From Odiellus spinosus (taxonomy: Eukaryota; Arthropoda; Arachnida; Opiliones; Phalangiidae), in NCBI GenBank assembly GCA_963920705.1, contig OY987232.1, positions 14,137,726 through 14,201,725 on the forward strand: a DNA stretch of 64,000 nt, written 5' to 3'. The notes beneath the pieces are model-generated. The model made no database searches. It saw nothing but the letters and a program-made list of their open reading frames with translations, and was not told the DNA's origin. Shown one piece after another: positions 6,278-63,921 of this stretch. Position numbers and translations under genes: made by a program. How positions within the stretch are numbered: the first letter of the stretch is position 1; the number at the start of each line of letters is the position of its first letter.

Positions 6278-9200
6278 TTAGCTGTTCTTGAACTTGCATC
6301 TCTTTTTCAACTCAATAACTTTAAAACTATATTGTACCTTATAATCAAAAAGCAACAATGGCTGTAATTCTTGAACCATCTCTTGGTAGGTTGACCGTAG
6401 TGCAGCTTGGTAGTCAAATTGATCAGAATTAATTAGACGTTCATTGAGGTCTAAGGCTTCCCCGCATACTTCAACAAATTGACTGGAAAAAATAAAGTTC
6501 TTGTACCATCTGGTAAAGCAATAGTACAATATATTTTTGAGGACTATGCAAAAAGCTATATACCTATAAACTTCTTTCAGTCTGAAAATTTGTTCCGAAG
6601 TTGGTTTTTGTTGAGCATTGGATTTAGTTTTCGTTAAAGTCACTGAAGTAGGATTTTGGGACATTTTATCCGTTTCATCCAGGTTTTTGATACTCGGCGA
6701 AGGTTGAAGGAAAGCTTTGGCGTAAGCCAATGGACCCGCATTGACTTGAACGCAGATACTTCCTTGTAATTTGAGCTGTAGCCTTTTCACATCCATCGGT
6801 AAGGATGATTCCAATATCTCGCGCAATTCTCCAACTCTGGTGTTCATTTCTTGAATGGCAACTTCGATAGGACTCAGGTCTTTAATAACTTTCGATCGTA
6901 CGCTAATTCGTTTTTTCACGTATGGAAACGCTTTAGTCGCTGAAATTTTGCAAAGTTAAAAGATTTATGTTTCCAGCCACGTGGAAATAGTTTGGAGAAG
7001 AACCTATTGATGACCCAAGAACGTATGAAGATAGATTCCCTTTTCTCTCTTAGTTTCTTATAGCGACACCTGCCTAGTCTTTCAGTTTTGCCTTAGCCAC
7101 TAACAAAAAAATCTTTAAGCTAGAAAACAATTTTTAACTATGTTAAATCTCATCGCACAAATCTGGCAAATCAACAGATTTTTTGCCATTAATATATGAT
7201 TGGTCCATGACGTCGGAGACTGAGATTTCACAGTCCCTCTTTAAAATTTGTTTGTTAGAAATTTTAACCTGACTTGAATTTAGAAACATAATATCCCCAT
7301 TCTTGGGTTATCAATGGGTTCTGGTTTTCTGTATTCTCACTAGTTAGTATTGTTTGTCTTTTCCACTGTCTGGTTATATCATCAGAACGGGCTTTACCCG
7401 AACCATCACGAGTAAAAGGAGTTTCATAAATAAATCGCGTGATATTATTCTGTCTTTCAAACTCAGTCGGTCTTTCCAAGAACTCAGTCTCATCAAAGTA
7501 AGGAATAACGTGCGTCACTTGAACGTGAGCGAATCTTGGATCTAAATCTCTCTCATCAACCTAAAATTTCACAAATCAGATTTATTTATGCAATATATCT
7601 ATAATCCTAAATCCTCTTGTAGTCATAAGTAACCTAATATTCATAAGTATGACACTTCTCATTGTTAAAATTTGTGTTGGGGTGTTACCGATATATCGGT
7701 ATCAGCTTATAAATTACCGATATTTTGAAGGGATCTTTGCAACTTGTTTTATTTATTCATTTCACGCCAAAAGCCTATCCAATGAGAGCGCGTATTGACA
7801 TTGTAACTAAAATAACCAATTGTAAGGGTTATATTTCTACTTAATTAAATTCAATCATTTCTTTGCTTTGAAAATATGTATATATTCCAATGCGCTAATG
7901 CATGAATTTGAAGTGCCATTGCCAACCTAGAGGCTAAAATTTCTCGAAAGTTTGCAGCTTGTAGGCTAGAGGGAAAATGGTTGCATGCATTACCCCATCT
8001 GGCTTTCTTTCCAGCCAAGCGTATTAAAGGCAAGTTGCCACAATGCCCGCTATGGCACCTCAAGTAAGAGCTAAAATGGTGTATTTAGGCCCAAACCCTG
8101 ACCACAATATATCCTAATTTAAATTCTATTTAAATTTTTGTTTGGGCAATCTTTAAATATCATCTCTTGGGATAGAAAGAACCTTATTCCAAGAGATCCC
8201 ATAATTATAATCCTTAAAAATTAAAATAGTAGGCTTACTTTCTTGGTGGCATTTGATCCAGTTCCTTCTTTAGTAAGTTTCAAATAATTTTTCTACAAAT
8301 GACAACTAAAATTTCATGCTGTTCTCCTATACTAACATCTTTCTTTGTCTTAATCGATTTTCTTTGTGTATAGGTTTGTGTTTTGGGATTCCTAGCCAAA
8401 CAATTAGACACTAAAAGTGATTATAAATTAATGTTAAGTCATAAGCCTAGCCCTACAGATAATCCAAAATTTTAGTACAAAAGAAAAAAGCACCGATTAA
8501 TTTTTGATAAATTGTAATACTAAAGATTATATGAAGTTACTCATGTAATCTTAAAACTAAATATAAGGCTACGCAACTTACTTGTACAGAATCCATTATT
8601 AGTTTAACGCACTCTTTTCCATATTTTTCTGAGTAGAGTCTTAAAAGTCTTTGAGATATTTCAGCAAGGGAAGTCACTTTTGGTTCTTTGTAGATAAATT
8701 CTTTAGCACTTTCACCCTCAAAATAAGCCTTTAATAACAAAAAACATAACAATTGAATATATTTCAGAATGCCTCGAGTCCCAAAAAAGGGGTCAGGATA
8801 TAAAAATAAATAATGTAAAAGTAATTAAATAAGTGCAATTGCGATTGGAGCATTCAGATCGACACCCAAATACTTAAAATAAAGGTGATAAAACTATGTT
8901 ATTTGGGAGAGAATTCCATTTAACATTAGTCTAGCAGAAAAATAACTTTCTAGTATTACCAAGAATAGATCTATATCCACACCGGCATAATGAACTGTAC
9001 GCTACAGCTCCAGTATAACGCTAGTCACAAATGGGAGGAGCTTGTTAGCATTGAAGTAATATACGTTATGATTTACACCCTATCACAGGAATGAGAATTC
9101 CCCAGTAGTCCGAGATTTCCTCTCTGCCTGCTGACTCTTGTAAGCCATGCTTATTGTAGAAAACCGCTTCCATTGCACATGACAGTAAACGGGGCTTAAG

Positions 9201-12200
9201 GCCCCCCATAGGCACTGCCCAACTGCAACTACAAAGCTATAGCTGTTCATTATTCTTGTGTGGTTTAGATCTATTCTTGGTATTACTGCGCATAAAAGAA
9301 GTTAAAAGTGTGCAGGCCTAGGGCAGCAGGCAACATCCCTTAACAAGACACCAAGTAACTTCAATCTGGGTTTTGTGATTTTGCAGTGGGGGTTTACGAA
9401 GCATTCCTTAGAGAGTGTTCCTTTAAAAGATCATACATTGTCTAAAATAATTCGGGTGAAAAAAAAAAAAAAAAAAATGCTGGGGAAATTGTGAAAGAAA
9501 TTGGAAAAAGTATCTAATGTCTGCCTGATTTCATTCATACAATCGTGATTAATATTAAGAAAGATTTCACTTGAACAATACCTCTCCAAAACAGACAACC
9601 CTATAGTATCTTCCAAGAAGTCGTCTCCCTGATCTTGTCACTTCTAGTATTCTTGAATAGGCAGCGTGTAGGGTCTTGTGACAGTTCGATAGTGCTTCAA
9701 AATTTCTTCTTCTTTCAAATATGGGGATAATTAATTTGTAAAGTGACGCCATGACTTCGTACCGCTCGGCTTGCTGCAATAACTCGGCACATTGCTTCAG
9801 TTTATCCAAGAGAGTTTCCTTTATTTAAATAATAAGACAATTTTATTCTAAAGAGATTCATAGCAAGGTTAAAGAATTAAAGGGAGACACGTAGCAAAAT
9901 AAACTCTGTACAAACCTATTGAAATGGTCTAAAAAGTGTCTAAAATTAAAAATTTCGCTCAAAATTGAACAATTTTCTAGCAAAGAGCATACGAAATTTG
10001 CATTTTCCCCTTGTTTTTTTATGTTTTTCCAGAAAAAGGCAGTGTTCAAATTTTTTGCTCCATTTGTATCTTTGCCTTGGAATTGTATTTATTACATTCA
10101 TTTTGTAACAGTTTCAATATGTTTGACCCCTTTTTAGCTTGACGTCTTAGGCCTACTTTCCTTCTATCATAAGGTACACACCCATCACTCTTGTTTTCAA
10201 TTATAACTAATTAGCAGCAAATTAACTATTTTTTCGTGCTTTATCATTCAATATTTATATCACAACTGATTATTATCATATCTCAAATTCAAACAGGGTT
10301 TCAAACTAGTATTTAGCACAAATGCAGTTTCTCAAATCCTTCAAAAGTGTGAGAAATAAGCAGCTAGGTCATCATTTACTTACTTCCGTATAGTTCAAGT
10401 CATTAATTCCTGAAATTCCAGCAGCACCAGGTGCTGAATAATCTTCCTTCAGTTGACCTTCATCCTCAGGAATATTAGGCGCAAATGGTCGAAAAACTTC
10501 GCAGCCTCCGAGAAATATTCCCCAATGTTTTAGATACTCGGCTTCCAACGCTGCCATGTGCAGCCAACAATGCGCAGCCTGAAAAGCAAGTATCCATGAA
10601 TACGGTCAGCTCACAGTGTGTATTTTTTCTTGATCCTAATTTACCTCAGAAAAATCTCCTCTTTTCAAGTGTATTCTAGCCATGCTTTGCAACCATGTTT
10701 CCCTTAAGGCTGGAGTGGCTGCGTAGCTATTGGCTAAAGAGTGCTGTAACTCAACAAGCATTTCAGCATCATTTTCGTGTTCTTTCAGTTGAGAAGTGGC
10801 CATGAGAACCGTTCTTATCCTTTTTGTCAAATCCTTCACTTCTCCAGGGAAACCTGGGTTTAAAATAATTGAGATTACCCATAAGGTACTTCCCATCGTT
10901 TCGTTAACGCCAAATTTTTTCAGTCAATGTGTGATTAAATATGATATATATATTTAAGTAGGCACGTAACCCGACTCTATTAGGTCCTTGTCAAACAAAT
11001 CTCGTGCTAAGCTTGCAAATTTAGTCTTTAAAAATTGAAAAAATTAGGGAGGCTGTTTTACGTAGTGTGGCATCGGTTTTACTTTACGTAGAATATCGAA
11101 AGCAATCGACTTACTCAGTGACGAAGAATCTTTTATGGTCAAAAATGCAGGTCCAAAATGGAAAATTCAACCAATTAGACAAAATAAAATAAAAACGTAA
11201 TTTAACAAAGTTCGTCTCCTTTTAATTGGTTTTTTCATTTTGACGTATACGGAAGAAATATTCCAATTTGGAGCATCTTTAATTGAGAAAATATTTTCCT
11301 CATTGGGTAAGTAAGCACATTTCTTTCATTATTAGATGGTAGCATATTGAAACGAAGAGTAAAATGACCTCCTGATGTAAAAACAGCCTCGTGGATTTTT
11401 TCAATTTTTAAAGATTAATTTTGCAAGCGTGGCACGAGATCAATATGACAAGGACCAAATCGAGTCAGGTTGCATTTGTACTATATGCCAGAATAAAATT
11501 TTAATTTGTCTCGATCATCCACAGCCCAAATAATCATAATAATAAACCATTTTTTTTTAAAGAATGGTAACGGTGGCTCACTAGTGGTAGTAAAGCTGTC
11601 AGCTATTTTACATGCTATTTTATTAATTTAAAGTTACTACTTAATTTAACATTTGCTACTTAGAGCAGCGCTTCTCAAATAAGGTCATGAAATCTAAAAC
11701 CAATTCTAACGCGCGAGAAAATCATTTCACACACGAGAATCATCAAATCTAAAGGAAAAAAAGTGTGTATAAAGTGATATCCTTGTGAGCTTGCAAGAAT
11801 TTCTTTTAAAAATCATGCAACCACAAGCTTTTAGCTTCTATTTTTTCGATTTCTTGCGAGCTTGCAAACCCCCCTTAAAGATACAAAACATAAATATGTT
11901 TTAGACATATAAATTAAGTATGTGACACTAAATTTTAATTTTTTTCATCTGCCAAACGCTCTAAACTAACTAAACTAGCCCACAGATTCTTGAAATGTAT
12001 TATAAATGGTATACAGAACCTCTAAACCCAAATAATGAAAAGTTGAATGTAAAAATTATTACCCGTATGCTGCATTGCTTTGTCACTGTCAGCGTACTTG
12101 CAAATGATCGAGAGACTTTCTTGAAACCTCGAGTTGTTTAAACTAATTACTTCTCCTAGTAGTCTCGAGACAGAGACAATTAACTGTTGACGAAAAAAAA

Positions 12201-30200: not shown

Positions 30201-33200
30201 GTGGCTCGCAACTTATGTGGTAAAATGAAAAAAGCAAGTGATGTTGTTCCGTCACGTGACACGGCAACAATATCTTCACCTAAATTTATTTACGAAGTGT
30301 TACGGATTCAATTAGAATTAACATAATTTACACAGGGGCACGTCTCTCCCATGATTAAATTTAAAATAGATTTTAATTCATTTAAATTATTATATGGATT
30401 TAAGGATTAAATCAAGAGATATTAGGTTTCAGTGAATATATCAAATCTTAATGAATAAATTTAATTTTAGATTAATTAAATCATAGACGTTAGAGATTAT
30501 GTCACAGATTAAAAAGATTAAACCCTCGAGATTAAGAGATTATTTCATCGAATAGGATTTAATACACATTCCAATTTTTTATAAAATTTTAATCACCAAC
30601 CTCTTCGTAAAAATCTGGAGCAGAATTGTGATGCGTAACTGCTGTTATTGCTTGGAAAGTCAAAGGTTCATCGACATCAGCACCAGGTCGAGCAAAGATT
30701 CTCTGCAATGGTTTTGAGTGTTCATCATCACGATTACGCAGCTCTATAATGCAAGCGATATTTCGAGCCTAGAACAGAGTGAAAAAGAGGATGACATAAT
30801 TAAGCTTTATCTAAAATTGAGAGTAAATATGCAAAAGTAACCAAAGAGTAACAGTTCGTCGCAGATATTTGGGTTCACATGAGCAATTTTCCACTTGCAC
30901 AGTTTTTAATTTGAGCATTTAAATTGTTGGGATTTCCCATTAATTTATTTGTAGGCAATCTACCTACGAAGTGGACATTTAGTCCCAAATTTTGGGCCTA
31001 ACCTAAATGAAAAATGACTTACTTTGGCAAATGTTTTTTGAGTGTCGTACTTCAGGCTCTTGGGGAAAACGTATAATAAATTTGTGTAACAGGTAAACGG
31101 GTAACTTTGAGTCGGGCAATCCTTAGGAGGAGAGAAACGCGCGATTTCTCTGGTCGCTTCGTGGGTCGGTGGCATCGGGAAAGGAGCCAATGGAATCAGA
31201 GAAGCGGTTAAAGCATCTAAAAAACAAAAAGTGAATTAAATCATACATAACAATAATTATTAATACAGAATGTTTATAAAAATGTTATTGGGGAGTTTTT
31301 AAAAGATTTCAGAAATATTCTGAAGGCTGTCTTGTCGAGGCATTCATATACTCAAGAAGAATCAGATAAGGAGAGGAAAAGTGGGAACGGCGCGGCTCCT
31401 ACTGCGTCGGCCTAAACTCCCACTCTGGGAGAACGGGGGACAGACGGGGGTAGAGATGCTTCGTGGTAAATTGTTGTCACGTGGGTAAAACGAATCCTTT
31501 ATGAGACGCCCTAGCTAGCGACCACGTGACAACAGTTTACCTCGAGAATTTCCTATCCCCCTTTCCACCCGAGTGGGAGGTTGGCTCTTCTCTCTCTAAC
31601 TCAACGCAGCCCCACTTTTCCTCTCCTTATCTGATCCTTCTTGATATACTGTAGTCTCATTACTCCCAACCCTTACCAAAAAAAGTTAGTCTGATCTGAA
31701 GAGGTTCTCAAGAACACTATAAAGGTGCTAAAGGTATCTTAAAGACTTCCCCAAGACCTCTTATGACTACATAAGACACCAGAAGGACTTCCCCAAAACA
31801 TCTTACGACTACATAAGACACCCAAAAGACTTCACAAAAACCTTTTAAGACTACAAAAATTTTGGAGCAATTTTTAAATTATGCCTTTTTCAGATTTTCC
31901 CTGACCCACAGTAGCCCTGCGTAATTTACAGATACGTTGGTCAATTACGAGACCAACTAATTCACGATTCCTACTAGAGTAAAGAGTCATTGACTTCTCC
32001 CGCATATATTGACTTTTGTTAATACTTACTAGGCACTGCGATAGAAGGATCCAGAATTTTAAGTGATATTTTTAAAGATCCTGGTATCACTACTAAATTT
32101 TTCAACTTCTCAGGCCTTGTAAATAAAAATGCAAGTTTAAAAGAGTGAATTTCCCGCATAACTTTGTTACTTTTAAAAGTTTTAAAAAAATCATACCGTC
32201 GATGTTCCGATAAATATCTAGCCAGGTCTTCATCAGAGAGTTTATTGTGCTCTTGGCGATATATTCTACTAAACACAGGTGTAGCGTCGAGCTCTCCCGA
32301 GAATCTTTTGAAAAGAGGTCGGGCTGCCCAAGCAAACGGCATTCTATAATGGCCCAGTCTCTGACAGCACTGTTTGACATGCTTCTGAATCTTAGCGCAA
32401 AGCCTTACATCTCCAGCGTAAGCGTTTGGTCTAAGATACGCTTCTGTCGCCTAGAAAGGAGAAAATTTCAAACTAAAACCACCTGTCTGTTTAATTTGTT
32501 TTATATTTTCCCAAAGCTAGGAATAATTTAGGATTCAAGAATGATTAGAGCCCACAGGCTTGAGAGTTGCTCAAATAAATTTTTTACAATCTTGACCCCT
32601 GTGACCACGCTGGTGTGATATTTTTGGAATGTCAAATAAATGTTCCTATGATTTTTGATTATCTACATATGTATAGAAGCTGCTTAAGAAGTATTTTGTC
32701 ATTAAAGTTATGAATAAGTGCAACTTAAAAGAAGTGAAGCAATGATGTCTTATAATATTTAAACTAGGGGTGTATGTTTACGGCTAGTGCTAGCAGCCTA
32801 GACAATTTTCACACGTTGTATTAAGCTTTTAAAATGCGATACAAGGAATATCCTACCTGCACAATTCCTCCTCGAAGAACTTTCTCTATTCTGACGACTA
32901 AATACAAGTCTGGATCTTCCTTGGCCAAGTTAAGAATGGCTTGTTTGGGGGTAGAGAGCCAGCCATCTTGAGCGAGACTGGATAAATGATATAGAGGGTC
33001 GATGCTGTCTCTCTTCTTTGGTTCCTTAACGGGCGATGATACGGGTGTCGCTGTGCTTTGAAAGTGTTCGCCAACATTTCCATTGCTGTTACTGTTAAAA
33101 GATTTCCTTTTTGACGAGATGTACGTGGGTTTCGGAAGCCAGATTCTAACATGAGGATGGTTGACGTCAAACCGGAATTCTTCAGACACTTTGCGTCCAC

Positions 33201-40216: not shown

Positions 40217-40259
<43 letters not shown>

Positions 40260-42133: not shown

Positions 42134-45100
42134 CTAAAGCTTGAAATAATAGATGAGTGCATTTTCAAGCACGAAGATTACGACGCTAGCTAAATGACAC
42201 ATGGATAAATAATAAAAATACAAAGCTAAAATATTCATGCGGAGAGTGAAATCTTCTTTCGTCGGTTTTTGCCAATTCAAAAATTCGAAGCCCGCTTTGC
42301 TTTGAATGTACAAGTACTCGAAGGGTTGTGTTTCATAAATAGCCATTAACCTATTTGATACGTCAAAGAAAGCAACGTAAGGGCAGGGTGACTTTAACCC
42401 GACTAGAACAGATTAAGAAGAGCTTTGAAAAGATGTCGATAACTTAAGCACCATGAAAAAGCTAGGGATTTACAGTTATCTTCAAAAACATATCTATCTC
42501 TCGCTTCCAAAAGGTCAGGCTAATTGTTAATTTAGGAAAATTGGGGCTTTTTCCCAACTTTTAAGCTCCTTTTTCCCATTTTTTTCTCCATTTTAAAATG
42601 TTCGAGCGATTTCAAAAAGTTTAGTTTTTGAAAACATTTAAGCATTACTTACGAGAGACCGTAGTATTCGAGAAACATTTTGTGATCATCGTGAAACGTC
42701 TTGTTAACTAAAAAGGCTTCAAATTCGCCACCCAGACTTGGAGAAAAGTACAAACCACCGCACTGTTGCTTCAGTTGTGTTTTCGATTCAAATTCCCCGG
42801 CTACCTTCCCGAAGGTCCAATAAAACAGGCGCTTGTTAAATATCGTCGCTTTGCTATCATGGCACATCTCCAGATAAGTTTCGATATCGATAAACTCAAA
42901 AATGTCGCCGTAATTTGATTCGTCTAGCTTTGAGTACCATTTCAATATTTTATCGTCGGTCAGTGACTGTAATATTGTTATTCCGAAAAATATTATAAAG
43001 ATTAGAATCGTCTTAAATAGACCAGGAACCATCCACAGGTTTCATATCGACCTTAAGGCGGTAGTCAATGGTCATATTTTTAATTTATCGTTAAAGCTTG
43101 GATATTTTCCCAATGCTTGGAAAGAAGCATTAGTCTCTCCAATCTTCAAAAAAGGTCTAAGCTCAGATCCGTCAAACTACAGACCTATCTCACTGTTGAA
43201 TTGTCTATCTATGATATTTGACATGTTAATGAGCACTAAACTCTACAATTGGTTTAAAATCAATCTCCCTGATAATCAACATGGCTTTATAAAGGGTCGC
43301 TCAGTTGAAACAAACCTACTAAGTACTTTACAATTTATGGCGTCCAGGGTTGAAAACAGGGGGCAAGTAGACATTATATACATCGACTTGTCAAAAGCCT
43401 TCGACAGAGTATCCCATCGTATACTACTTCAAAAATTGAATTACTATGGCTTAAATGGAAATCTACTAAAGTGGGTTAGTAGCTATCTAACAGATAGGAA
43501 TAATTTATTAAAAATCAATGGAGAATTATCGAACACTGGCTATAAAGTAACCTGCGGTGTTCCCCAGGGTTCCTCCCTGGGCCCATTGTTATTCAACATA
43601 TATACTTCTGACATACCATTGCAAATTCAAATGTCGAAGATATATTTATTCGCTGATGATAATAAGTTAGGCAACGCCATTTATAACGAAGATCATTGTA
43701 AAGAACTTAACGCTGACCTAATTAATCTTCAAAATTGGTGTATTTCAAACAACATCCCTATAAATGAAGAAAAAACTTACGTAGTGTCGTATACGCGAAA
43801 AAAAGAGAAAATCATTTATCCCTACCAATTAAGTGGGAAGCCTCTAAAACGAGAAAAAAGGGTCCGAGATTTAGGTATAATATTTGATGAAAAGCTACAC
43901 TTTATTGATCATGTAGACAACATTACAAGATGTTGTTTCAGTACCCTATGCCTAGCTCTCAAGATTGCGAGAAATATCAATTCACCTAAATGCTTTAAAA
44001 AATTATACATAACCCTAGTAAAGCCAAAGCTGCTATTTGGCGCGGTAGTTTTTAGTGGTTGCAGCAAACACCAAATATCCAGGCTCGAACGTATTCAGAA
44101 AAAGTTCGCTAAATTTTACCATACCTACTTTCACTCAGACACTAGCTATAAGTACGAAAAATTTCTAAATATACTCCAGATAGACTCCATAAAAGATTCT
44201 ATTACCAAAATTGATATAATGTTTTTACATAAAATAATCAACAACACTATTGACTGTAAAGAATTGTTAAAAGAAGTCAATTTTAGCATTCCAAACATTA
44301 AAACAAGAAATAATAATTTTAAACCTTTTAAACCGCAATTAAATACAATGCTCCCTATCAGTCGTATAATGAAAAAATTTAATAAATATGGACATAACAT
44401 AGATATATTTCAAAATAAAACTATATGTCTAAAGACATATAAATTTATGTAAATAATATTTTTAAACAGCTTTTTATCCCTGTACATACTCCCCTTTTTT
44501 TTTTTAATTTAAAACTGTACTGACACTTGCGTGCACACACTTGTAGGTCAAACCACTTTGTACTGTTTGTTTGCACGAAATAAACCATTATTATTATTAT
44601 TATCATTTCCGTACCTATTATCTCACGTTCTAATAACGCTAGAATCTTCAACTTTACTTCTGACGAACCAGAAAAGTCAGACGTAGTTCGTGGTATAATT
44701 TGACAACTTTAAGTTTAATTAGGATAAACACGTTCGTGTTTATATCCCTTTATCTAAACTCGAATTTCATCAGAAACCGTAATGTCTTTTCCAATGGACC
44801 CGCGGCGCTTGATAACTGAAAGCGTCGTCGTCGTCGTCGTCGTCGTTTCCCTCTTCCCACCGTCCACTGAATTCGAATTAATACAGACAAAGGTACTTTT
44901 GAAAAAATTTGATAAAACTTCGATCAGGTACAAGAGTATCTCTAGTTAAACACAGATTTCAATAATGAAATGGTGATTAAGTATATGAAGTAATAGAAAG
45001 TAAGGTACCTGAATGGGTTACAAAAGGGTGAAATCTTAAGCTTAGCCGAGCTTTACTAATTGCTTCAAAATGAATAAACAAAAATTTTATTTCTTAAACA

Positions 45101-48100
45101 GTAGAATGATAAGGAATATCCATCGAATTCGAGTTAATAGAAAGTAAGGTGCCTGAATGGGTTACAAAAGGGTGAAATCATAAGCTTAGCCGAGCTTTAT
45201 TAATTGCTTCAAAATGGTAAACAAAATTTTATTTCTTAAACAGTAGAATGATAATGAATATCCATCGAATTCGAGTTAATAGAGAGACAGATGCCTGTAT
45301 GGGTGACGAAAAGGGTAAAACATATAACTAGCCGAGCTTTATTAATTGGCTTTAAATTGATAAACAAAAATTGATTTTATTAAACAGTTGATAAGTTTTT
45401 TTTAATGGCATTTTTTATCGTTAACGGAAAATTGCATTTATTGGGTTCTTTTACTAGGGTAGCCCTCTTCAGCCGTCTAATTTTGACTATTATGTCATAT
45501 CATGAGTATCCCATTATATTCACCCTAATTCACCGTAATTAAAAAGTTGGAATGATTTTCTTATCATTTGATTTTTTAACTTTAAAAATATATCTCTTCT
45601 CGGCCTATATAAACGAGATTTGCATATTCAGTACTCACAGATGCACTGTACCAATGCGTGGTTTACGTTAGCTTTTAAAATTGTGGCGAGCCCTCTCGTT
45701 TGTGCAATGGTGACGTCTTCGATTGTTTAGGCAATCGTTTCTCACCTATGTTTCGGTGATAAGAGACTCATTTCTCACGATCTTTTGGGTAGAGTACTCG
45801 AATAAACCGAGGCGATTGAATGTAAATCGCCTTACCTAGAAATGTGGCCAATATAATATAGTAAGTCACTGTAAAAACATTTCACAATGAGAGTTCTAGG
45901 GATTAAATATCACTCGAGTTGGACTTCATATCCTGCCAAGTGCTCGATTACACATGAAATTTATAGTTTAACGTTTTCAATCTCTACTTTATTTTTTAAA
46001 ATACTTGAGTTTTGCGACTAGGATGTGCTTTAGATCCAATAGCTTCGTCATTACAACTACATAATAACGTTGCTATTAAGTAGTTGACCAATTATTGAAG
46101 TCTGTATCTAAATCACGTCTAACTCAATTATAATAAAAAATAAAGATTTAGAATTTTAAATATTATATACGAAACGGAAATTGATGTCGGCGAGTTAAAT
46201 AAACGGCCACATACTTCTGGTCTCCAGAATTATGTTCTCATGCTGCTTTAAAGAATTGTTTCGCTTTCCATGCTCATTTTTTGTCGATGCGATTCAATAT
46301 TATAAATTTAATCTCTAGCTCGGTCTAGCCCGTCCCTCTTGTAATATTTTAGGTAAGGCTAGGTTAGTTAATCCCTCGACCTCCCCCGTCCATCTGGTAA
46401 TCTTTAAGGTGAGGTTAGGTTAGTTAATCCCTCTAATTAGCCAATCCCTCCAACTAGTTAATCCTTAGCTCGGGCTATTTGTAATATTTTAGGTAAGGCT
46501 AGGTTAGGTTAGTTAATTCCTCGAATTAGCCCATCGTTCCAACTAGTTAATCCCTCGGGTTACCCATTCCATCAAGTAATCTATAAGGTTAAATTAGGTT
46601 AATTAAACCCTGGAAATAGCCCATCCCTCCAACTAGGTAATCCCTATAACTCCGGCTAACCCGTTCCTCTTGTAGTATTTTAGGTAAGATTAGTTTAGGT
46701 TAGTTAATCAATTGAACTAGCCCATCCCTGTTTTACAACTTAGGTAAGGTTAGGTTAGTTAATCTCTGCCTTTCGAGATTTGTACCAGGGTCTCAATTAC
46801 GAATAGATTGAAGCCTCAATTAAACGCTTTAATTTTTATTCAGCATTAGTAAGAATTAAAGTTCAATAAACCTATAAAGCAAAATAGTGAAATGTGGAAA
46901 AGGTGTATATTTTTGGAGAAAAAAGGACAGAAATTATACAAAAAAGAGGTTGCTTCGCACCCTTAAAAAAACTCTTTATCTAACTCGAATCAAACCCGTG
47001 AAGGGACAGAAATTATTTGTTAGAGAAAGAGCAATTTCATATCTTTAAAATTATAGTTAGTAGATTTAGTCTACTACTTCAAAGATTTTATTACTATTAT
47101 ATATTTTCCAAAAAACGGATAAAGACGACCTAGTTAACCATCCTCTCCCATTGATGTTTATTTTAAATTCTATCAGTATCACTAATAAAATTAGCTAAAG
47201 ATGGAGTTCCTTTAATGTATATATATTTATCATTAGTCCTAGGTCGTCTTTATCCGTTTTTTGGAAAATATATAATAGTAATAAAATCTTTGAAGTAGTA
47301 GACTAAATCTACTAACTATAATTTTAAAGATATGAAATTGCTCTTTCTCTAACAAATAATTTCTGTCCCTTCACGGGTTTGATTCGAGTTAGATAAAGAG
47401 TTTTTTTAAGGGTGCGAAGCAACCTCTTTTTTGTATAATTTCTCTCTAGTTATGATAAGAAATGTGTATTATAACGGTGTTTTACGCGTAAACTCGAAGA
47501 TGTCGCCTCAATAGAGCCTATATCCTAAAATAAATAAAACTAGCTGGAAATCCACGCCCCCAGGCAAGCAATATTTATTGGGGGTATAGAAACGGGGCGT
47601 CACCGACTAGCCTACGCGTGCCCACCCGCCGCGAGAGGCAGCGGGACACCGGGAAGTAAATCATTCCCAAAACGATATTTACCCCCAGACAAGTAGTGAC
47701 ATCGTACTACTGAATAACCCTTTACTACCGCCTTAAGATAAAAATGTGACGGAACATACCTTTTTTTTGAAGTAGTCGTTCGCTAGAGAGTTTTCTAACA
47801 TCTTCGCCTTCAATTTGCCGTCATCGATTAAATCGTAAATGTTATTGATGTAAATGTAGTTTTCTTGCGTTAATTCAGATTGCATAAATGAAGTTAAGAA
47901 TATTACTATAATCAGAGAGCAAAGCAGCCACGTTAAGCATATTATCCTTTCGGGTAAACGTCGTCTTATACTTGGATATGCTGAATATTCGAAACCAAAA
48001 GAAATCGTATAAGAAATCTAATAGTAGGAAACCAATTAAGTTCCGACTTACGTTCGGCTAAGAAAATCGAGACAGTATCCCAAAGATGAATGGTGTAATG

Positions 48101-50086: not shown

Positions 50087-50156
50087 CTAAAAAATCATCA
50101 CAATAAATTGAGAATATTTGTCATTGTCATTGCCGTCTATTAGGATTAGGCTTCGT

Positions 50157-50804: not shown

Positions 50805-51428
50805 AACTTCTCTCAACAGAATTTCTCCCAAGAGAATTTCTCTCAAAAGAATTTAATCCCGAGATAATTTCCTCCAGAGAGAATTTACTCCAAAAAGAAT
50901 TTCTCCAAAGAGAATTTCCTCCAAAAAGAATTTCTCCCAAGAGAATTTCTCCCAAGAGAATTTCTTTCAAAAGAATTTCCTCCAAAAAGAATTTCTCCCA
51001 AGAGAATTTCTTTCAAAAGAATTTCTCTCAAAAGAATTTCTCCCAAGAGAATTTCTCCCAAGAGAATGTCTCCCAAGAGAATTTCTCCCAAGAGAATTTC
51101 TCTCAAAAGAATTTAATCCCGAGATAATTTCCTCCCGAGAGAATTTACTCCAAAAAGAATTTCTTTAAAGAGAACGTCCTCCAAAAAGAATTTCTCCCAA
51201 GAGAATTTCTCCCAAGAGAATTTCCTCCAAAAGAATTTCTCCCAAGAGAATTTCTTCCAAGAGAATTTCTCTCAAAATAATTTCTCTCAAGAGAATTTCT
51301 CCCAAGAGAATTTCTCCCAAGAGAATTTCTCCCAAGAGAATGTCTCCCAAGAGAATTTCTCCCAAGAGAATGTCTCCCAAGAGAATTTCTCCCAAGAGAA
51401 TTTCTCCCAAGAGAATTTCTCCCAATCC
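50805..51428. repeat. 15-bp minisatellite
   Basis: The unit is TTTCTCCCAAGAGAA and variants, about 41 copies. Because 15 is a multiple of three, open frames on the minus strand repeat five residues (LLGEI in one frame, SLGRN in another). A block of about 100 bp of variant units beginning TTTAATCCCGAGATAATTTC occurs at about 50848 and again at about 51109, so a segment of about 260 bp was duplicated within the array. Confidence 0.9.
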
Positions 51429-51950: not shown

Positions 51951-51959
51951 CCCCCCCCT

Positions 51960-52711: not shown

Positions 52712-52907
52712 GGGGCAAATACATTACAACCAATTAGAAAGCAAAGGGGCATTATTGACGCAATTGAAGGCTAACGAACCAGAAAGCGGGAAAATTATTT
52801 GCGGAATATGGACACTGTGGATATGGGAATTTTTCGTCACTCGTGTCTAGTTGGCGTAACTTCAGGGAATCAGAAAGGTCCTTGGCCATAGGGTAAGAAT
52901 AAACATT

Positions 52908-53387
52908 TTGCAAAGAAATTTCCCATATTCCGCACTGAAATTTCCTACATTTCGCAAAGAAATTTCCTACATTTCGCAAAGCAATTTCCTTCATTTCGCA
53001 AAGAAATTTCCTACATTTCGCAAAGAAATTTCCTACATTTCGCAAAGAAATTTCCTACATTTCGCAAAGAAATTTCCTACATTTCGCAAAGAAATTTCCT
53101 ACATTTCGCAAAGAAATTTCCATTATTTCGCAAAGAAATTTCCATTATTTCGCAAAGAAATTTCCATTATTTCGCAAAGAAATTTCCATTATTTCGCAAA
53201 GAAATTTCCTACATTTCGCAAAGAAATTTCCTACATTTCGCAAAGAAATTTCCTACATTTCGCAAAGAAATTTCCTTCATTTCGCAAAGAAATTTCCATT
53301 ATTTCGCAAAGAAATTTCCATTATTTCGCAAAGAAATTTCCATTATATTTCGCAAAGAAATTTCCAATATTTCGTAAAGAAATTGTA
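52908..53387 (+). repeat. 22-bp minisatellite
   Basis: The unit is TTTCGCAAAGAAATTTCC plus TACA or ATTA, about 21-22 copies. The unit has no stop in any forward frame, so an open frame of 169 codons crosses the array and repeats every 22 residues. TACA-type and ATTA-type units are grouped in blocks, which suggests expansion by block duplication. Not called as coding. Confidence 0.92.
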
Positions 53388-54049: not shown

Positions 54050-54056
54050 TATGTAC

Positions 54057-54373
54057 CAAGAATCCATTCAGCTTCCATAAGAATATGGGAGCATAGCTTT
54101 AGCCTCTGGTACCATCCTCCCAAACTTTGTAACAAAAGTTCGTCCGCAATTTTCGCAACATTTGTACGCTTAGATCTTTTTTCGGTCGGCTCCATTTTTA
54201 TTACCCAAAATATTATGTCAAGGTCGTTAGTGGCGCGGGTTAATAATGTAATGTCAGGAGCGATTTACTTGAAAAATCGATTCGAAGCGGACGAACTTTT
54301 GCTACAAAGTTTGGGAGGATGGTTATTGAATCGCGGCCCTCCCATATTCTTATGGAACCTGAATGAATTCTTG
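54057..54373. mobile_element. Inverted-repeat element (CAAGAATCC), copy 1, 7-bp target duplication
   Basis: This 317-bp element has ends CAAGAATCCATTCAG and CTGAATGAATTCTTG, flanked by TATGTAC at 54050-54056 and 54374-54380. The arms share CCATAAGAATATGGGAG and CCATCCTCCCAAACTTTGTA. Confidence 0.88.
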
Positions 54374-54705
54374 TATGTACACATACATTCTTATGTGTGC
54401 TAAACAAATAGCAAGGCATATTATGGTTTACAACCTTCTTAGGAGTCTTCTTAATAAGATCCGTTTATATCAAGCTTTTGAGAGATCACTTCGTTTAAAA
54501 GACACTACTGCGGGTTGCATCTTTGCCAAGTGCTCGTAAGGCCCTGCAAACAGTGTCTTTAATCCTAATCATACAGTTACGCCATTGATCGGGTCTAATT
54601 ATACACAGCTATATAGACACGAGGTTTTCGCTTATAATATGGAAAAAATAATTGTACCCAACTATTTTTGACGTTAAGAACTTTTGCAGGTTAATTTATA
54701 GGGTA

Positions 54706-55617
54706 GGGTCGCCTAACTCTGAACGCTTTTTAAGAAATCCGAGATCTCGATTGCTATGGAATAGTCGCGGACCCGTTGCGCTAGTTTTCATTATTCCATG
54801 ACGCGTACTTTTGACGCGGACGAGGTTTTGAAGACTACAGTAGCGGCTTCTAATTCAGAGCGAACGATTCTAATTTTGAATGACCCGATTCCAATTTTTA
54901 ACACCCCCTGCCCATAAATCTGAACTATCAAAAAAAAATCACAAATTTGCAAAAGGAACCACTCAAACTTTACGACGAACTAGGGCGCGTAAGCCCGTGA
55001 TTTTTCCTGAACTCGTAAAACCAGAAGCCGATGAAACCCTCCTTTGAAGTCTATTACTCCCGGGTCTTGTCTACCCCTCTCTGTATGGGTTATTCTCAAA
55101 AGGCGCGATTCGTACCCCTCCTAACGGCAGATGTTTTCGGAGCGGGAGTTCGTCGAGCGAATATCTCTAGCAGCCTTGGAGTTCGTCCAAAAACGTCGTC
55201 GTTTGTGGAGAGAGAGAATTTCCAATTTTCCGTAGACAGGGGGGGATGAAGTAGGACCCCTTCTAACTCGTAAAATTGTGAATTTTACCCATACAGAGAG
55301 GAGCGCTATATGGAACATTGGAGTAGTAGACTTCAAAGGAGGGTTTCATCGGCTTCTGGTAAAACCTTATTCCCTGGACCGTAAAGGGAAACATTCCCGT
55401 AAAAAACGGTCTAATTAGGCTAATTATCGCGGTTGGCTAATTAGGGTCGTATCTTCTCCTGGTCTTTTCCTAGAGTGTTGAAGTCGCGTTCCACGAATAG
55501 CCCCATTCTTAATCTACAAAATGAGCGCTTCCATCTATAAATAGACTCAACCAAAGTTAAGTTATATATTTTTAAATGAAAGTGTTCAGAATTAGAAGCG
55601 TTCAGATTTAGGAGGAC
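54706..55617. mobile_element. Possible element with CCTAAMTCTGAACGCTT ends
   Basis: Imperfect inverted ends (GGTCGCCTAACTCTGAACGC and the inverse of AAGCGTTCAGATTTAGGAGG) enclose about 900 bp. Within it lies a younger CAGAAG element (55022-55358). No target duplication is evident. Confidence 0.35.
55022..55358. mobile_element. CAGAAG inverted-repeat element, copy 1, 7-bp target duplication
   Basis: This 337-bp element has ends CAGAAGCCGATGAAACCCTC and its inverse, flanked by GTAAAAC at 55015-55021 and 55359-55365. An inner block CCTCTCTGTATGGGT is also inverted. The centre holds CGTCGAGCGAATATCTCTAG. Confidence 0.92.
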
Positions 55618-55885
55618 TGAACATATTTAAATATCGTATTTTACGGTCGATACCATCTGGGGGCTATAGCTAGAATTAAGAAAGATTATGTCGAATTCTC
55701 ACGTAGAAACAGTTCTAATGTTATTTGTGGCTCTTATTCGTAATGACCGAAAAAGATGTAATTGCCGGTCTAGCTATTCATAACACGCCAAACGCAGGAA
55801 AAAATGTATATTTTTAGTTGTGTTACTGTTAAGACGAAAATATTTTTTCCTATAATAATTTGTGAATATTGCATTTGGGTTTTAT

Positions 55886-56222
55886 CAGAAGCCGATGAAA
55901 CCCTCCTTTGAAGTCTACTACTCCAATGTTCCATATAGCGCTCCTCTCTGTATGGGTAAAATTCCCAATTTTACGAGTTAGAAGGGGTCCTACTTCATCC
56001 CCCCTGTCTACGGAAAATTGGAAATTCTCTCTCTCCACAAACGACGACGTTTTTTGGACGAACTCCAAGGCTGCTAGAGATATTCGCTCGACGAGCTTCC
56101 GCTCCGAAAACATCTACCGTTAGGAGGCGTACGAATCGCGCCTTTTGAGAATAACTCATACAGAGAGGGGTAGACAAGACCCGGGAGTAATAGACTTCAA
56201 AGGAGAGTTTCATCGGCTTCTG
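55886..56222. mobile_element. CAGAAG inverted-repeat element, copy 2, 7-bp target duplication
   Basis: This 337-bp copy is in the opposite internal orientation to copy 1. It is flanked by GTTTTAT at 55879-55885 and 56223-56229. Confidence 0.92.
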
Positions 56223-56276
56223 GTTTTATTTAACTTATTATAAATATTCAATTATGTCCCATAATTTATTTGAGAC

Positions 56277-56680
56277 ATTTGATCAAATATTAGTTTTTAG
56301 AGGCATTTGATCGAATTAAATTAGTTTTTAGAGGCATTTGATCGAATTAAATTAGTTTTTAGAGGCATTTGATCGAATTAAATTAGTTTTTAGAGGCATT
56401 TGATCGAATTAAATTAGTTTTTATAGGCATTTGATCGAATTAAATTAGTTTTTAGAGGCATTTGGTCGAATTAATTTAGTTTTTAGAGGCATTTGATCGA
56501 ATTAAATTAGTTTTTATAGTCATTTGATCGAACTAAATTAGTTTTTAGAGGCATTTGATCGAATTAAATTAGTTTTTAGAGGCATTTGATCGAATTAAAT
56601 TAGTTTTTAGAGGCATTTGATCGAATTAAATCAGTTTTTAGAGGCATTTGATCGAATTAAATTAGTTTTTAGACGCCTTC
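56277..56680 (+). repeat. 31-bp minisatellite
   Basis: The unit is GGCATTTGATCGAATTAAAT plus TAGTTTTTAGA, about 13 copies with few substitutions. Confidence 0.92.
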
Positions 56681-57318
56681 AAAAAAGAAAAAAAAAAAGT
56701 TACAGCCTCACTTCAAGTTTTTGTTTCTACTTTTACCTCGACTCTGATATACGAGCTATATGCTTCCCAGATGATTTAGAAATGGCCGTGGACCTATAAA
56801 GAGCGAGCCTCGATCAGCCTGGTTATAAAAATACAAAGACTGGAAGGCAAAAATATCATCAAGACAAGAGCATCGAGGTTGTCAGGAGGTTCGTTGGTCC
56901 GAGCGTTCCAATATGGATCATTAGCTTCCCTACTATAGTGACTTCAATAAGAAGTACTTCTGCCTCTGGGTAAAGATTGCCACGAGGGTAACCCGAAACA
57001 AAAGCACTTCACTATAGTCTCTTCTGGTTTTTCAGATAAAAATAATTGTTACTCTACCGTGCAGTATACTATATAGTTGTGTCCGTTGCTTAGAAGCAAC
57101 AGAATATCAATCTACAAGTAAGAAACACAAGCAACGAGTTTGTTACTCGTCCATCTTTCTACTTGGTTTTTACTTTATTGTCTTTAAGTCAGTGGCCAGA
57201 CTAAATATCAACGGACGAAAGTTTTTTTTTTTTGAATGGGAGGATGCAAAGAGGTGTAGTTTTTTGCCACATTTGACCTGTGCCCTTGAAACGTTGCATT
57301 TTGTGATATGCTGCGCAA
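56681..57318. other. Unassigned stretch
   Basis: No gene or named repeat recognised. Confidence 0.4.
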
Positions 57319-57322
57319 TTAA

Positions 57323-57859
57323 GGCGGTATTCAATGGGTAACTCACCAAAAAAAGGTCATTATTAAGCTATTTTAACTTTAATTTGAATTGAAATCTTTA
57401 GTTTATGATGTAATTTTGATAATTATAACGCGAGAGATTAGCGAATCTTGTTTAAAAATAACTTATCGAAATTTTATCCTTTCCGTACCTATTATCTCAC
57501 GTTCTAATATCGCTAGAACTTTACTTCCGACGAACCATAAATGTCAGACGTAGTTTGTGGTATAATTTGACAATTTTAGGTTTGATATTTCTCTAGTTAC
57601 GATAAGAGATGTATATTATAACTCGAAGAGTCCCCACAATAGAGCCTATTATCCGAGACCCGTCACCGTCTGGCCTACAGAATGCCCACCCACTGCGAGA
57701 GGCGAGATACTGGGGAAAGAGGTAAGAGTGAGTTCAGTAGACTGGGAAATAAATCATACAAAAACAATCCTCACCCCCAGAACAACTAAGACCCCTATTA
57801 TAAAAATAGGTGCGCCATCTCGTGCTTTTTATGGTACTAAATAACCCTTTACTACCACC
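57323..57859. mobile_element. TTAA family element, short copy
   Basis: This 537-bp element has inverted ends GGCGGTATTCAATGGGTAAC and TACTAAATAACCC-TTTACTACCACC. It is flanked by TTAA at 57319-57322 and 57860-57863. It is the simplest full copy of the family that forms the composite at 43057-47732. Confidence 0.82.
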
Positions 57860-57907
57860 TTAAAGTGTTTTCGTCCAATTTAAAATCGGGCCAGATAGCG
57901 GTATTAC

Positions 57908-58277
57908 CAAGAATCCATTCAGGTTCCATAAGAATATGGGAGCATAGCTTTAGCCTCTGGTACCATCCTCCCAAACTTTGTAACAAAAGTTCGTCCGCAA
58001 TTTTCGCAACATTTGTACGCTTAGATCTTTTTTCGGTCGGCTCCATTTTTATTACCCAAAATATTATGTCAAGGTCGTTAGTGGCGCGGGTTAATAATAG
58101 ATGTCAGGAGCGATTTACTTGAAAAATCGATTCGAAGCGGACGAACTTTTGCTACAAAGTTTGGGAGGATGGTTATTGAATCGCGGCCCTCCCATATTCT
58201 TATGGAACCTGAATGGATTCTTGTGGTTATTGAATCGCGGCACTCCCATATTCTTATGGAACCTGAATGAATTCTTG
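57908..58277. mobile_element. Inverted-repeat element (CAAGAATCC), copy 2, 7-bp target duplication
   Basis: This 370-bp element is flanked by GTATTAC at 57901-57907 and 58278-58284. It is nearly identical to copy 1 at 54057, but its right terminal block of about 53 bp (ending GAATTCTTG) is present twice in tandem. It begins 44 bp beyond the TTAA element. Confidence 0.9.
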
Positions 58278-58284
58278 GTATTAC

Positions 58285-60072: not shown

Positions 60073-60408
60073 CAGAAGTAGATGAAACCCTCCTTTGAAG
60101 TCTACTACTCTAATGTTCGATATAGCGCTCCTCTCTGTATGGGTAAAATTCCCAATTTTACGAGATCGGAGGGGTCCTACTTCTACCCCCTGTCTACGGA
60201 AAATTTGAAATTCTCTCTCTCCACAAATGACGACGTTTTTTTGACGAACTCCAAGGCTGCTAGAGATATTCGCTCGACGAACTCCCGCTCCGAAAATATC
60301 TACCGTTAGGAGGCGTACGAATCGCTCTTTTTGAAACTAACCCATACAGAGAGGGGTAGACAAGACCCGGGAGTAATAGACTTCAAAGGAGGGTTTCATC
60401 GGCTTCTG
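60073..60408. mobile_element. CAGAAG inverted-repeat element, copy 3
   Basis: This 336-bp copy has ends CAGAAGTAGATGAAACCCTC and the inverse of CAGAAGCCGATG. The flanks (TAAGCGC and GTGTTTA) do not match, so one flank was altered or this copy arose by recombination between two copies. Confidence 0.85.
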
Positions 60409-60826
60409 GTGTTTATAATAAGAAATAATTTATCCGAGATTAAAATATCTGAAAAAAAGCCGAGTTATCAATGGATTTCTTAAGTTATTCATTAACCGAT
60501 TCCGAGCTCTAAATCGATTCCAAGGTCTGTCTATAGTGTGAAAGAGGATTAAGTCTTTTATTGAGCTTAAAATCGCTTAAGTTCAACTGCGCACCTACTT
60601 AGTTTCCTAGCCTTAAGTCTACACCTGATCCAGTCCCATGCTATCTCATGACATAAAGTGCATAAACAAGAGAAACGTTTCGAAAAATATAAAGTCATTA
60701 TCTGGATTACCATATTATAGAGTACAATATGATTTGGTGCACGTAATATTTATTTAACGTCAAGGGGTTGTTACACCAAATATCTTCTTTCAAGATCTTT
60801 GCGGTTTAAGGGTCATTTCCCCGTAC

Positions 60827-61244
60827 CAGAGGTATATAATAACCCCCTTCGGGAGGAAGTATGAAAGCCCCTATACTACCAATGCTAAAAATCACGAACA
60901 ACAAGAGCCCGCTGCTGACTATCTAGGCCACTAGCTCGCGCTGGACTTCTCAATGTCGCTACTCTAGTAAATGGTCTTTGTATAAACAAGACGGCTCGAT
61001 TTGTGTTTAGCACTTCCTGTCTCAGGAGTCAGACTGTCTGTTAAAATGGAGTCGAAGGTTGACTTCAGCTCGCGAGTTCCGGAAGTGTGCGTAGGGAAAA
61101 TTTAGTGAGGTTCAAAATGGTGTAACTATTTTTTGGGAGTAAAGCGGTGTGTCGATCCGCCGCGATTTACGCCGGGCACTTGTTGTTCGTCGATTTTGCC
61201 TACCTTTCATACTTCCCCCCGAAGGGGGTTATTATATACCTCTG
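60827..61244. mobile_element. CAGAGG inverted-repeat element, 7-bp target duplication
   Basis: This 418-bp element has ends CAGAGGTATATAATAACCCC and its inverse, flanked by CCCGTAC at 60820-60826 and 61245-61251. The empty site would read GGGTCATTTCCCCGTACC followed by TATTATCAAGCG. That matches the TTAA-family sequence near 51920, so it sits inside a TTAA-family fragment. Confidence 0.9.
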
Positions 61245-61251
61245 CCCGTAC

Positions 61252-61857
61252 CTATTATCAAGCGAAATTCAAATCCTAATGTATATTATCTGTTTAATTT
61301 AAAATAGACTAGTTTTCATTCGAGCTCTACTCTGGGTTCCCCAACTTGTTTTTGATATTTGTATTGGCAAACGTTATGTTACTTGATTGTCGTTATATTT
61401 TAGAATGATATTGACCGTAGAATAAGTCGTAGGAATTATCGTATGTCTGCAGTAACACGCATTTTCCCAAACGTAAAAAAAAAAATCAGTAATTATATTT
61501 TCAATATTATAATATTATTTTTATTCGTGGGTAGCACAGAGTACTATTTTACGTGATAAAAAATAGATGCGCGATCAATGTCGTAACTTTATATGATTTG
61601 GATTTAGAACGCTCTTTGCAGGGCTTACGGCCACTTCAAAAAGGTTGCAACGCGATATTAATTTCATGTCTGTTAATCAGCGCGATTATTCAAAAACTTG
61701 AGTTAATTGCTGCTTAAGGTCCTTCAAAGAAAAGTAAGATTTGAAAAGAAAAAAAAAACGTTTATTTCAATTCTGGTTAAGGGATAACTACTAGAGAAAT
61801 CAAGTGCGCAGACTTCCTGATTTCATTTAAAAATTTCAATACTGTCATTGTGATATC
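61252..61857. other. Unassigned stretch
   Basis: It begins with TTAA-family sequence (TATTATCAAGCGAAA) and the short match to 58825-58880. Beyond that, nothing is recognised. Confidence 0.4.
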
Positions 61858-62850
61858 ATTTGATGCCTGGAAATCATTGGGAAATTAATCAGGTGTATGG
61901 AAATCATTGGGAAATTAATCAGGTGTATGGAAATCATTGGGAAATTAATCAGATGTCGGTAAATTATTGGGAAATTAATCAGGTGTCTGGAAATTATTGG
62001 GAAATTAAACGGGTGTCTTTAAATCATTGGGAAATTAATCGGGTGTCTGGAAATCATTGGGAAATAAAACGGGTGTCTTTAAATCATTGGGAAATTAATC
62101 AGGTGTCTGGAAATCATTGGGAAATTAAACGGGTGTCTGGAAATCATTGGGAAATTAATCGGGTGTCTGGAAATCATTGGGAAATTAATCGGGTGTCTGG
62201 AAATCATTGGGAAATTAATCGGGTGTCTGGAAATCATTGGGAAATTAATCGGGTGTCTGGAAATCATTGGGAAATTAATCAAGTGTTTGGAAATAATTGG
62301 GAAATTAATCAATTGTCTGGAAATCATTGGGAAATTAATCAGGTGTCTGGAAATCATTGGGAATTTAATCGAGTGGCTGGAAATCATTGAGAAATTAGTC
62401 AGGTGTCGGGAAATAATTGGGAAATTAATCAGGTGTCTGGAAATCATTGGAAAATTAATCAGATGTCGGAAAATTATTGGGAAATATATCAGGTGTCTGG
62501 AAATTATTGGGAAATTAAACGGGTGTCTTTAAATCATTGGGAAATTAAACAGGTGTCTTTAAATCATTGGGAAATTAATCAGGTGTCTGGAAATCATTGG
62601 GAAATTAATCAGGTGTCTTTAAATCATTGGGAAATTAAACAGGTGTCTTTAAATCATTGGGAAATTAATCAGGTGTCTGGAAATCATTGGGAAATTAATC
62701 GGGTGTCTGGAAATCATTGGGAAGTTAATCAAGTGTTTGGAAATAATTGGGAAATTAATCAATTGTCTGGAAATCATTGGGAAATTAATCAGGTGTCTGG
62801 AAATCATTAGGAAATTAACAGGGGTTTGTAAATCATTGGAAAATCAAATG
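61858..62850 (+). repeat. 30-bp minisatellite
   Basis: The unit is GGAAATCATTGGGAAATTAA plus TCAGGTGTCT, about 32 copies. The forward frame repeats ten residues (NHWEINQVSG), and the reverse strand is also open over long stretches. Variant units recur in the same order: TCGGTAAATTATTGGG at 61945 and TCGGAAAATTATTGGG at 62466, and TGTTTGGAAATAATTGGG at 62284 and 62734. This indicates internal block duplication of about 450-520 bp. Not called as coding. Confidence 0.93.
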
Positions 62851-63380
62851 GTGTCTGGATATTATTTTGAAATTGCTTAAAGACTTAAAATCAATTTGAA
62901 ATTACTCAAATTCCGCTAAACCTTATGAGCGCGAAGACCGAAAAACCAAATCGACTTGGATTTAAATATTAATAGCTTGTTCTCTAATTTTTAATTTCTG
63001 TTCCTTTACGTGTTTGACCCAAATAATACAAAGTACATTCTATAGTGGTGCCACATTACCTCTTTTTTAATTAATATGTATGTTTTTATTGGTTTTCCAA
63101 CGATCTTTCTGAAAATAATACTAACTTCCTATTGGAATTTCTTGAAACTGGCGAAACTAAGAAAATCAGTTATCATTAAAATTGTTTAATTAATTTTGTT
63201 TATTATTCAGCCCACAAATGGAGACAAATTACGCCCCATACGTGAGGGTGTCCGAAGACCACTACATTAAATATAGGTAATTTAGAAAAAAAAATATATA
63301 TATTTGGCCCTCTAGTGAATAAACTTCAAACCTAAAGACCATCTTAAAATCAATTCGTTACCGCCCTTATTAAAATATAA
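62851..63380. other. Unassigned AT-rich stretch
   Basis: No gene or repeat recognised. Confidence 0.4.
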
Positions 63381-63387
63381 ATCTTAC

Positions 63388-63721
63388 CAGAAGTAGATGA
63401 AACCCTCCTTTGAAGTCTATTACTCCCTGGTCTTGTTTACCCCTCTCTGTATGGGTTAGTTTCAAAAAGCGCGATTCGTACGCCTCCTAACGGTAGATAT
63501 TTTCGGAGCGGGAGTTCGTCGAGCGAATATCTCTAGCAGCCTTGGAGTTCATCAAAAAAACGTCGTCGTTTGTGGAGAGAATTTCCAATTTTCCGTAGAC
63601 AGGGGGGTATGAAGTAGGACCCCTCCGATCTCGTAAAATTGGGGATTTTACCCATACAGAGAGGAGCGCTATATCGAACATTAGAGTAGTAGACTTCAAA
63701 GGAGGGTTTCATCTACTTCTG
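63388..63721. mobile_element. CAGAAG inverted-repeat element, copy 4, 7-bp target duplication
   Basis: This 334-bp copy has ends CAGAAGTAGATGAAACCC and its inverse, flanked by ATCTTAC at 63381-63387 and 63722-63728. The right duplication overlaps the first base of the neighbouring TA-type element, so this copy is the younger of the two. Confidence 0.92.
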
Positions 63722-63727
63722 ATCTTA

Positions 63728-63921
63728 CCCGGTAAATAGGCTTAGCTGGATTAATGGAGATCTTGAATTTCTTCGCATTGAAGGGTCAACGACCAATCGA
63801 ATATTGGAAGTTTCACGGAGATCTCGCCTTAAAGACGGGTCTTTAATTGCTCATTAGTCGCTGACTCATCAATGCGAAGAAATTCAGGATCTCTATGAAT
63901 TCAGCTAAGCCTATTTTCGGG
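63728..63921. mobile_element. CCCAGAAAATAGG inverted-repeat element, copy 2
   Basis: This 194-bp copy has ends CCCGGTAAATAGGCTTAGC and GCTAAGCCTATTTTCGGG, flanked by TTA. It shares GGATTAATGGAGATC and GGGTCAACGA-type blocks with copy 1 at 27608. Confidence 0.78.

Follow-up and report, generated by a model that had tools for sequence, protein, structure and literature searches.

Five families of short inverted-repeat elements with 7-bp target duplications in Odiellus spinosus, very likely miniatures of the P superfamily

The 64,000-nucleotide stretch of Odiellus spinosus DNA analyzed here (the window; positions 14137726-14201725 of contig OY987232.1, in a genome of 443 Mb and 286 contigs) holds nine short inverted-repeat elements of five families, A to E, which are very likely non-autonomous miniature inverted-repeat transposable elements (MITEs) of the P superfamily. 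Confidence in this reading is higher for families A to D and lower for E. An earlier note, made from the letters of the window, had described nine such elements in five families, and direct reading together with an inverted-repeat scan confirms every one of them, family and position alike. Family A has four members in the window (starting at 55022, 55886, 60073, and 63388), D has two (54057 and 57908), and B (60827), C (31353), and E (8960) have one each. The elements are 291-418 bp long, with inverted repeats of 33-41 bp in the four families measured. The further claim that all of them share CARRRG ends stands as far as a common CA-purine start is concerned. Families A and B begin with CAGAAG/CAGAGG, but C, D, and E begin with CAAGAA, in which the sixth base is A, so the end common to the five families is CA plus four purines.

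The evidence for this reading begins with the target duplications. Perfect 7-bp direct repeats lie flush with the inverted repeats in eight of the nine window elements, as the note had also seen, and the flanks of the element at 60073 were read and show no duplication. A chance 7-bp match is expected in about 1 in 10,000 cases per element at the given base composition (a hand calculation), so the eight duplications are not due to chance. The same length is found across the genome. A whole-genome search with each family gave 132 insertions with both ends available, made up of all nine window copies (eight from A to D and one from E), copies that were fetched, and full copies met by chance in the fetched flanks; entries that are the window's own copies (L001, L009, L039, and L009_747) and one-ended flank copies are left out of the counts. 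An exact 7-bp duplication flanks 100 of these 132 (29/39 in A, 24/30 in B, 30/34 in C, 16/20 in D, and 1/9 in E), and nine further copies have it with a one-base mismatch. Two other copies match over 8 bp; L045 is a clean case, and L058 most likely has 7 bp together with a mutated first base. In one E copy the match runs to 9 bp, next to an end that has decayed. The genome-wide 7-bp duplication that the note had proposed to look for is borne out in this way, and the variable length that it thought would speak against its view occurs only trivially, as the one clean 8-bp case among 132.

The duplicated bases also follow a pattern. A preference for duplications ending in TAC had been suggested, and it holds for five of the eight in the window but for only 20 of the 99 listed for families A to D. 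Genome-wide, the duplications follow the weakly palindromic motif RTNNNAY, which is accompanied by T at -3 and A at +3. Among 100 duplications, T occurs at position 2 in 76, A at position 6 in 77, A or G at position 1 in 75, and C or T at position 7 in 74; outside the duplication, 69 have T at -3 and 59 have A at +3. The information content is low, at no more than 0.90 bit per position, and the make-up of the duplications varies slightly among families A to D (permutation p = 0.022). The sequence GTATTAC is close to an ideal case of this motif. The data support one integration chemistry shared by the families, namely a 7-bp staggered cut at the same weak palindromic target.

Set against published motifs, families A to E show the palindromic target motif with GT...AC edges by which the P superfamily is recognized. 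For example, Galileo, a member of the superfamily, makes 7-bp and rarely 8-bp duplications (8 bp in three copies in D. willistoni), and its consensus is GTATTAC in D. willistoni, GTAGTAC in D. buzzatii, and GTANTAC in six Drosophila genomes, with a palindromic target motif that reaches past the duplication (PMC4168063). The likeness lies in the 7 bp and the palindromic motif, and the Galileo consensus GTATTAC, as that text gives it, is found twice in the window. The difference is that Galileo has very long, foldback inverted repeats, whereas A to E are elements of a few hundred base pairs, and the genome and the sequences differ as well. The 1360 element of Drosophila melanogaster, from the P group, likewise has 7-bp duplications, with the motif GTTNAAC (PMC3276498), and is likened to the present families by duplication and motif alone. 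The signature that the earlier note took for unusual is thus a known one, since 7-bp duplications with GT...AC edges are documented for Galileo and 1360, and the note's bracketed hint that P-type elements duplicate 7-8 bp was right, A to E having the duplication length of the P superfamily.

The possibility of a method artefact was addressed by a de novo scan for inverted pairs with exact flanking repeats in 73 sequences (320 kb). It returned 38 pairs at 7 bp, of which 35 start with CA and two belong to the P family g4 described below; the complexity filter of the scan excludes families B and C, and one of the 38 rows (L001) is the window copy at 63388 again. At 8 bp it returned four pairs, and all four listed are of the CAGGGACGG family, which, judged by its ends, we take to be hAT-like. 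That this family comes out at 8 bp from the same set rules out the method as the source of the 7-bp length. The same result bears on the idea that A to E are hAT-type miniatures. The ends of hAT elements often begin with CAG, as those of A and B do, and their duplications are of the form NTNNNNAN. The hobo motif GTNCGNAC resembles the GT...AC pattern (PMC3276498). However, hobo, a hAT element, duplicates 8 bp in 99.83% of cases according to the same text, the hAT-like family in these very sequences does so too, and the 8-bp target duplication of hAT is not what A to E show, with their 100 exact 7-bp cases and single clean 8-bp case. A hAT origin is therefore very unlikely.

Other inverted-repeat families are seen in the fetched sequences. 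One, of 238-240 bp (CAGGGACGGAAATAAG), has 8-bp duplications at L006:1024-1261, L041:587-824, L042:2269-2508, and L065:230-468 and is probably hAT-type; a possible relative at L061:2498-2785 (CAGGCTGGG) shows 7 bp. A sixth CA-purine family, 317 bp long with ends CAGAAATAGATGAACC that resemble those of family A, is found at L040:904-1220 and L064:2543-2859, and its duplications, CTATTAC and ACGTTAC, are 7 bp long.

P elements themselves are present in this genome. The guanosine triphosphate (GTP)-binding insertion of P-type transposases (PF21788) gives at least 144 matches above the 24.8-bit cut-off here and none in 14 control genomes. The P family g4 has an 801-amino-acid open frame with the THAP, TNP-like_RNaseH_N, and TNP-like_GBD domains, its transposase matches the structure of the Drosophila P transposase (6p5a) at E 3.3e-21, and its ends are CGGTGCCTCCGAGATCC. 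When the first 300 bases of g4 were used as the query, seven copies were listed, each 100% identical across that stretch, and all seven have 7-bp duplications. Two of them span 2,996 bp each by their end coordinates, compared to 3,777 bp for the full form, which fits a single derivative that has an internal deletion and is moved in trans. A second P family, g3, has the ends CATGGACTCTAAATC and the RNaseH_N and GBD domains in the scanned frame, with 7-bp duplications in both copies examined, from four listed places that match the whole query at 99-100%; one of the two (L070) is inserted within a family A miniature. The 7-bp length is found in 9/9 copies examined of the two P families together. 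When scored on the MITE motif, the nine P duplications have a mean of 1.99, compared to a window mean of -3.17, and none of 20,000 random draws reaches that value. The P element of Drosophila resembles these elements in the match of g4 to 6p5a and in the GT...AC edges of its target, but it duplicates 8 bp (GTCCGGAC; PMC3276498) where the elements here duplicate 7 bp. The note had left open even the kind of transposase that moves the families; 7 bp with GT...AC edges is documented for the P superfamily and is the same in the P elements of this genome, which points to that kind.

A further link between P elements and miniatures comes from a short element derived from g3. With the first 300 bases of g3 as the query, ten short matches of 76-77% identity were listed besides g3 itself; they cover only its first ~144 bases. 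One of these, miniature G (L154), spans 281 bp (positions 15-295); its inverted repeats are perfect (CACGGACCTTCAATCTAATAGGACCAGAAAGCG), and its flanks carry the duplication CTTGAGC. At the left end it is 76.6% identical to the left end of g3 over 145 columns, and at the right end 75.8% identical to the right end of g3 over 91 columns. The 7-bp duplications were found in 7/7 copies examined of the ten listed (six of them read at the ends only). Since its ends are homologous to g3 and its duplications are 7 bp long, P elements here are a source of miniatures with the size and the duplication length seen in A to E. Miniature G is the direct counterpart of the P-MITEs of Anopheles gambiae, which are short, with P-derived ends, an unrelated centre, many copies, and 8-bp duplications (PMC1562414). 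The difference is that the P-MITEs and the P masters there duplicate 8 bp, compared to 7 bp here. Among the papers listed by searches of an open-licence library, none was seen to report P-type miniatures with 7-bp duplications outside flies.

Several results weigh against a P origin of families A to E. In the searches made, A-E ends were not found around a transposase gene. Along the 5' sides of 20 P loci and of a further multi-copy P locus, L119, every comparison with an A-D end gives 6 or more mismatches in 21, and perhaps half of these stretches may stop short of the element end; the E end, at 16 bases, is too short for such a comparison. On one contig (C1), the 25-26 P matches are all at least 9 kb away from the B, C, and D ends among the matches listed (100 places per pattern, with a subset of the nearest places rechecked); the places listed for A, all on the plus strand of C1 and up to 1.86 Mb, were left out of this comparison. 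The interiors of A to E have no convincing similarity to g3, g4, or L154, and homology of the ends to an element with a THAP, ribonuclease (RNase) H, and GTP-binding transposase, as seen for miniature G and g3, was not found for A to E. The duplications themselves leave exceptions: 31 of the 132 copies have no perfect 7- or 8-bp match or, in one E copy, match over 9 bp; 7 bp is absent from 8/9 E copies; and one P duplication, GACCACC, fits the motif badly, with a score of -4.04. The scarcity of intact duplications in E fits the age of the family, whose relatives are 69-93% identical. The evidence for E is mainly the window copy, and the age of its copies makes this family the weakest case.

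The lack of a parent with A-E ends and of interior similarity to g3 or g4 is also what would be seen if the families belonged to a superfamily not yet described, with a strict 7-bp duplication and no relation to P. This is highly improbable, as both the length and the motif are already explained by the P elements of this genome, which also produce miniatures as small as these. The note thought that separate autonomous parents in different superfamilies would overturn a common origin, and such parents were not encountered.

Some candidate parents were considered and rejected. An A-like stretch with 6 mismatches in L106 is coding sequence. A C end that lies 9.4 kb from a P match on C1 belongs to a plain C copy. 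Eight lone C ends on C1 were fetched, and six are one C copy with identical flanks, one is the end of a plain C copy, and one is a C copy with a shortened inverted repeat. The six places (L120, L121, L122, L124, L125, and L126) carry an identical C copy with an identical 12-base left flank, which means that a larger unit holding the C copy has itself been multiplied.

The data support mobilization of the families in trans, presumably by some DNA transposase. The duplication length, the motif, the bases at the ends, and the case of L154 together make it likely that A to E use P transposases, probably more than one. The earlier note favoured one transposase for all five families, which in the P superfamily would be an enzyme with relaxed end recognition (CA plus purines), and this is unlikely. 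The idea has the constant duplication length, the near-identical motif in A to D, the CA-purine start common to all, and the CAAGAA common to C, D, and E to recommend it. However, the inverted repeats are unrelated past CA plus purines, and the P families here each carry quite different ends (CATGGACTC, CGGTGCC, CACGGACC). The P-MITE families of Anopheles each follow one particular P subfamily (PMC1562414). The slight differences in motif among the families count against a single enzyme as well, and so does their unequal divergence (A ~3% from the consensus, D ~1%, and E far older), which means that they were active at different times.

In the P reading of these families, a P-type transposase, with a THAP DNA-binding domain and an RNase H-like catalytic domain carrying a GTP-binding insertion, would be produced elsewhere in the genome. 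It would bind the ends of a miniature and excise it, and the miniature would then be reinserted by a 7-bp staggered cut at the weak palindrome T-3 nn RT NNN AY nn A+3. Repair of the gaps would leave the 7-bp duplication.

The abundance of the families is considerable. Exact end matches number 10,754 + 10,808 (21,562) for A, 1,718 + 1,669 (3,387) for B, 1,671 + 1,645 (3,316) for C, and 2,389 + 2,360 (4,749) for D, with zero matches to the reversed-pattern controls. Estimated as half the exact ends times the element length, A to D together occupy ~5.6 Mb, or ~1.3% of the genome. The families have the features of MITEs, being shorter than ~600 bp, with inverted repeats, high copy number, and no transposase, which they are too short to encode. 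The identity lists for the families hold the best 40 copies, biased to those nearest the window copy, so the identities there overstate the youth of the families. In a fairer sample of copies met by chance in flanks, the mean divergence is 3.2% for A (19 copies, four from the window), 4.1% for C (4 copies), and 0.9% for D (4 copies).

Duplications of strictly 7 bp at GTATTAC-like targets, known from Galileo and 1360 of Drosophila, thus also mark P-type elements of this genome, and together with RTNNNAY they offer a practical way to recognize P-type miniatures that would go unclassified otherwise. If A to D are what they very likely are, P-superfamily miniatures can reach very high abundance. 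A more speculative proposal, and a rather unlikely one, is that a single P transposase, or a very small number of them, recognizing ends loosely, drove several unrelated miniature families to well over 10,000 copies, mainly outside the stretches with P genes (as seen on part of one contig), which would make P, rather than hAT or mariner, the main maker of miniatures in this genome. On C1, 21 of 27 P-transposase matches are crowded at 3.0-8.5 Mb. For B ends on the same contig, 77 of 100 places among the matches listed lie up to 3.13 Mb, one at 3.13-16.4 Mb, and 22 beyond. On this one contig, the miniatures and the genes for the transposase seem to reside in different chromatin.

The individual window elements are as follows, each span including its duplications where present. 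The E element (8953-9286, plus strand) covers 8960-9279 (320 bp), with ends CAAGAATAGATCTA and duplications GTATTAC at 8953-8959 and 9280-9286. The C element (31346-31650, plus strand) covers 31353-31643 (291 bp), with ends CAAGAAGRATCAGATAAGGAG and duplications ATATACT. The first D element (54050-54380, plus strand) covers 54057-54373 (317 bp), with ends CAAGAATYCATTCAG and duplications TATGTAC. The second (57901-58284, plus strand) covers 57908-58277; its last 54 bp are present in tandem copy (58170-58277), which places the outer end at 58277, and the duplications GTATTAC lie beyond that outer end. The B element (60820-61251, plus strand) covers 60827-61244 (418 bp), with ends CAGAGGTATATAATAACCCCC, 41-bp inverted repeats, and duplications CCCGTAC. 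Family A is represented at 55022-55358 (55015-55365 overall, plus strand; ends CAGAAGCCGATGAAACCCTCC, duplications GTAAAAC), at 55886-56222 (55879-56229 overall, minus strand; duplications GTTTTAT), at 60073-60408 (minus strand; recombined or decayed, without target duplication), and at 63388-63721 (63381-63728 overall, plus strand; ends CAGAAGTAGATGAAACCCTCC, duplications ATCTTAC). The copies at 55022 and 55886 are oppositely oriented and together form large inverted repeats. Short frames after ATG, seen by eye inside B and D, are putative coding remnants.

The window has other features as well. At 46926-47446, two 208-nucleotide arms, 100% complementary and separated by a 105-nucleotide spacer, make up a very recent or actively maintained large palindrome that is not linked to families A to E. 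A 512-amino-acid open frame at 42914-44449 has a reverse transcriptase domain (PF00078, E 1.6e-31) and is probably a non-LTR (long terminal repeat) retroelement. On the minus strand at 6281-6955, one or more exons with a DHR-2 lobe C domain (PF20421) indicate a DOCK-type gene, and further DOCK-like stretches were seen, by eye only, at later positions in the window. Tandem arrays are found at 36306-36686 (period 31), 50808-51425 (period 15), 52903-53384 (period 22), 56289-56673 (period 31), and 61867-62874 (period 30), and some of the arrays yield long open, repetitive frames.

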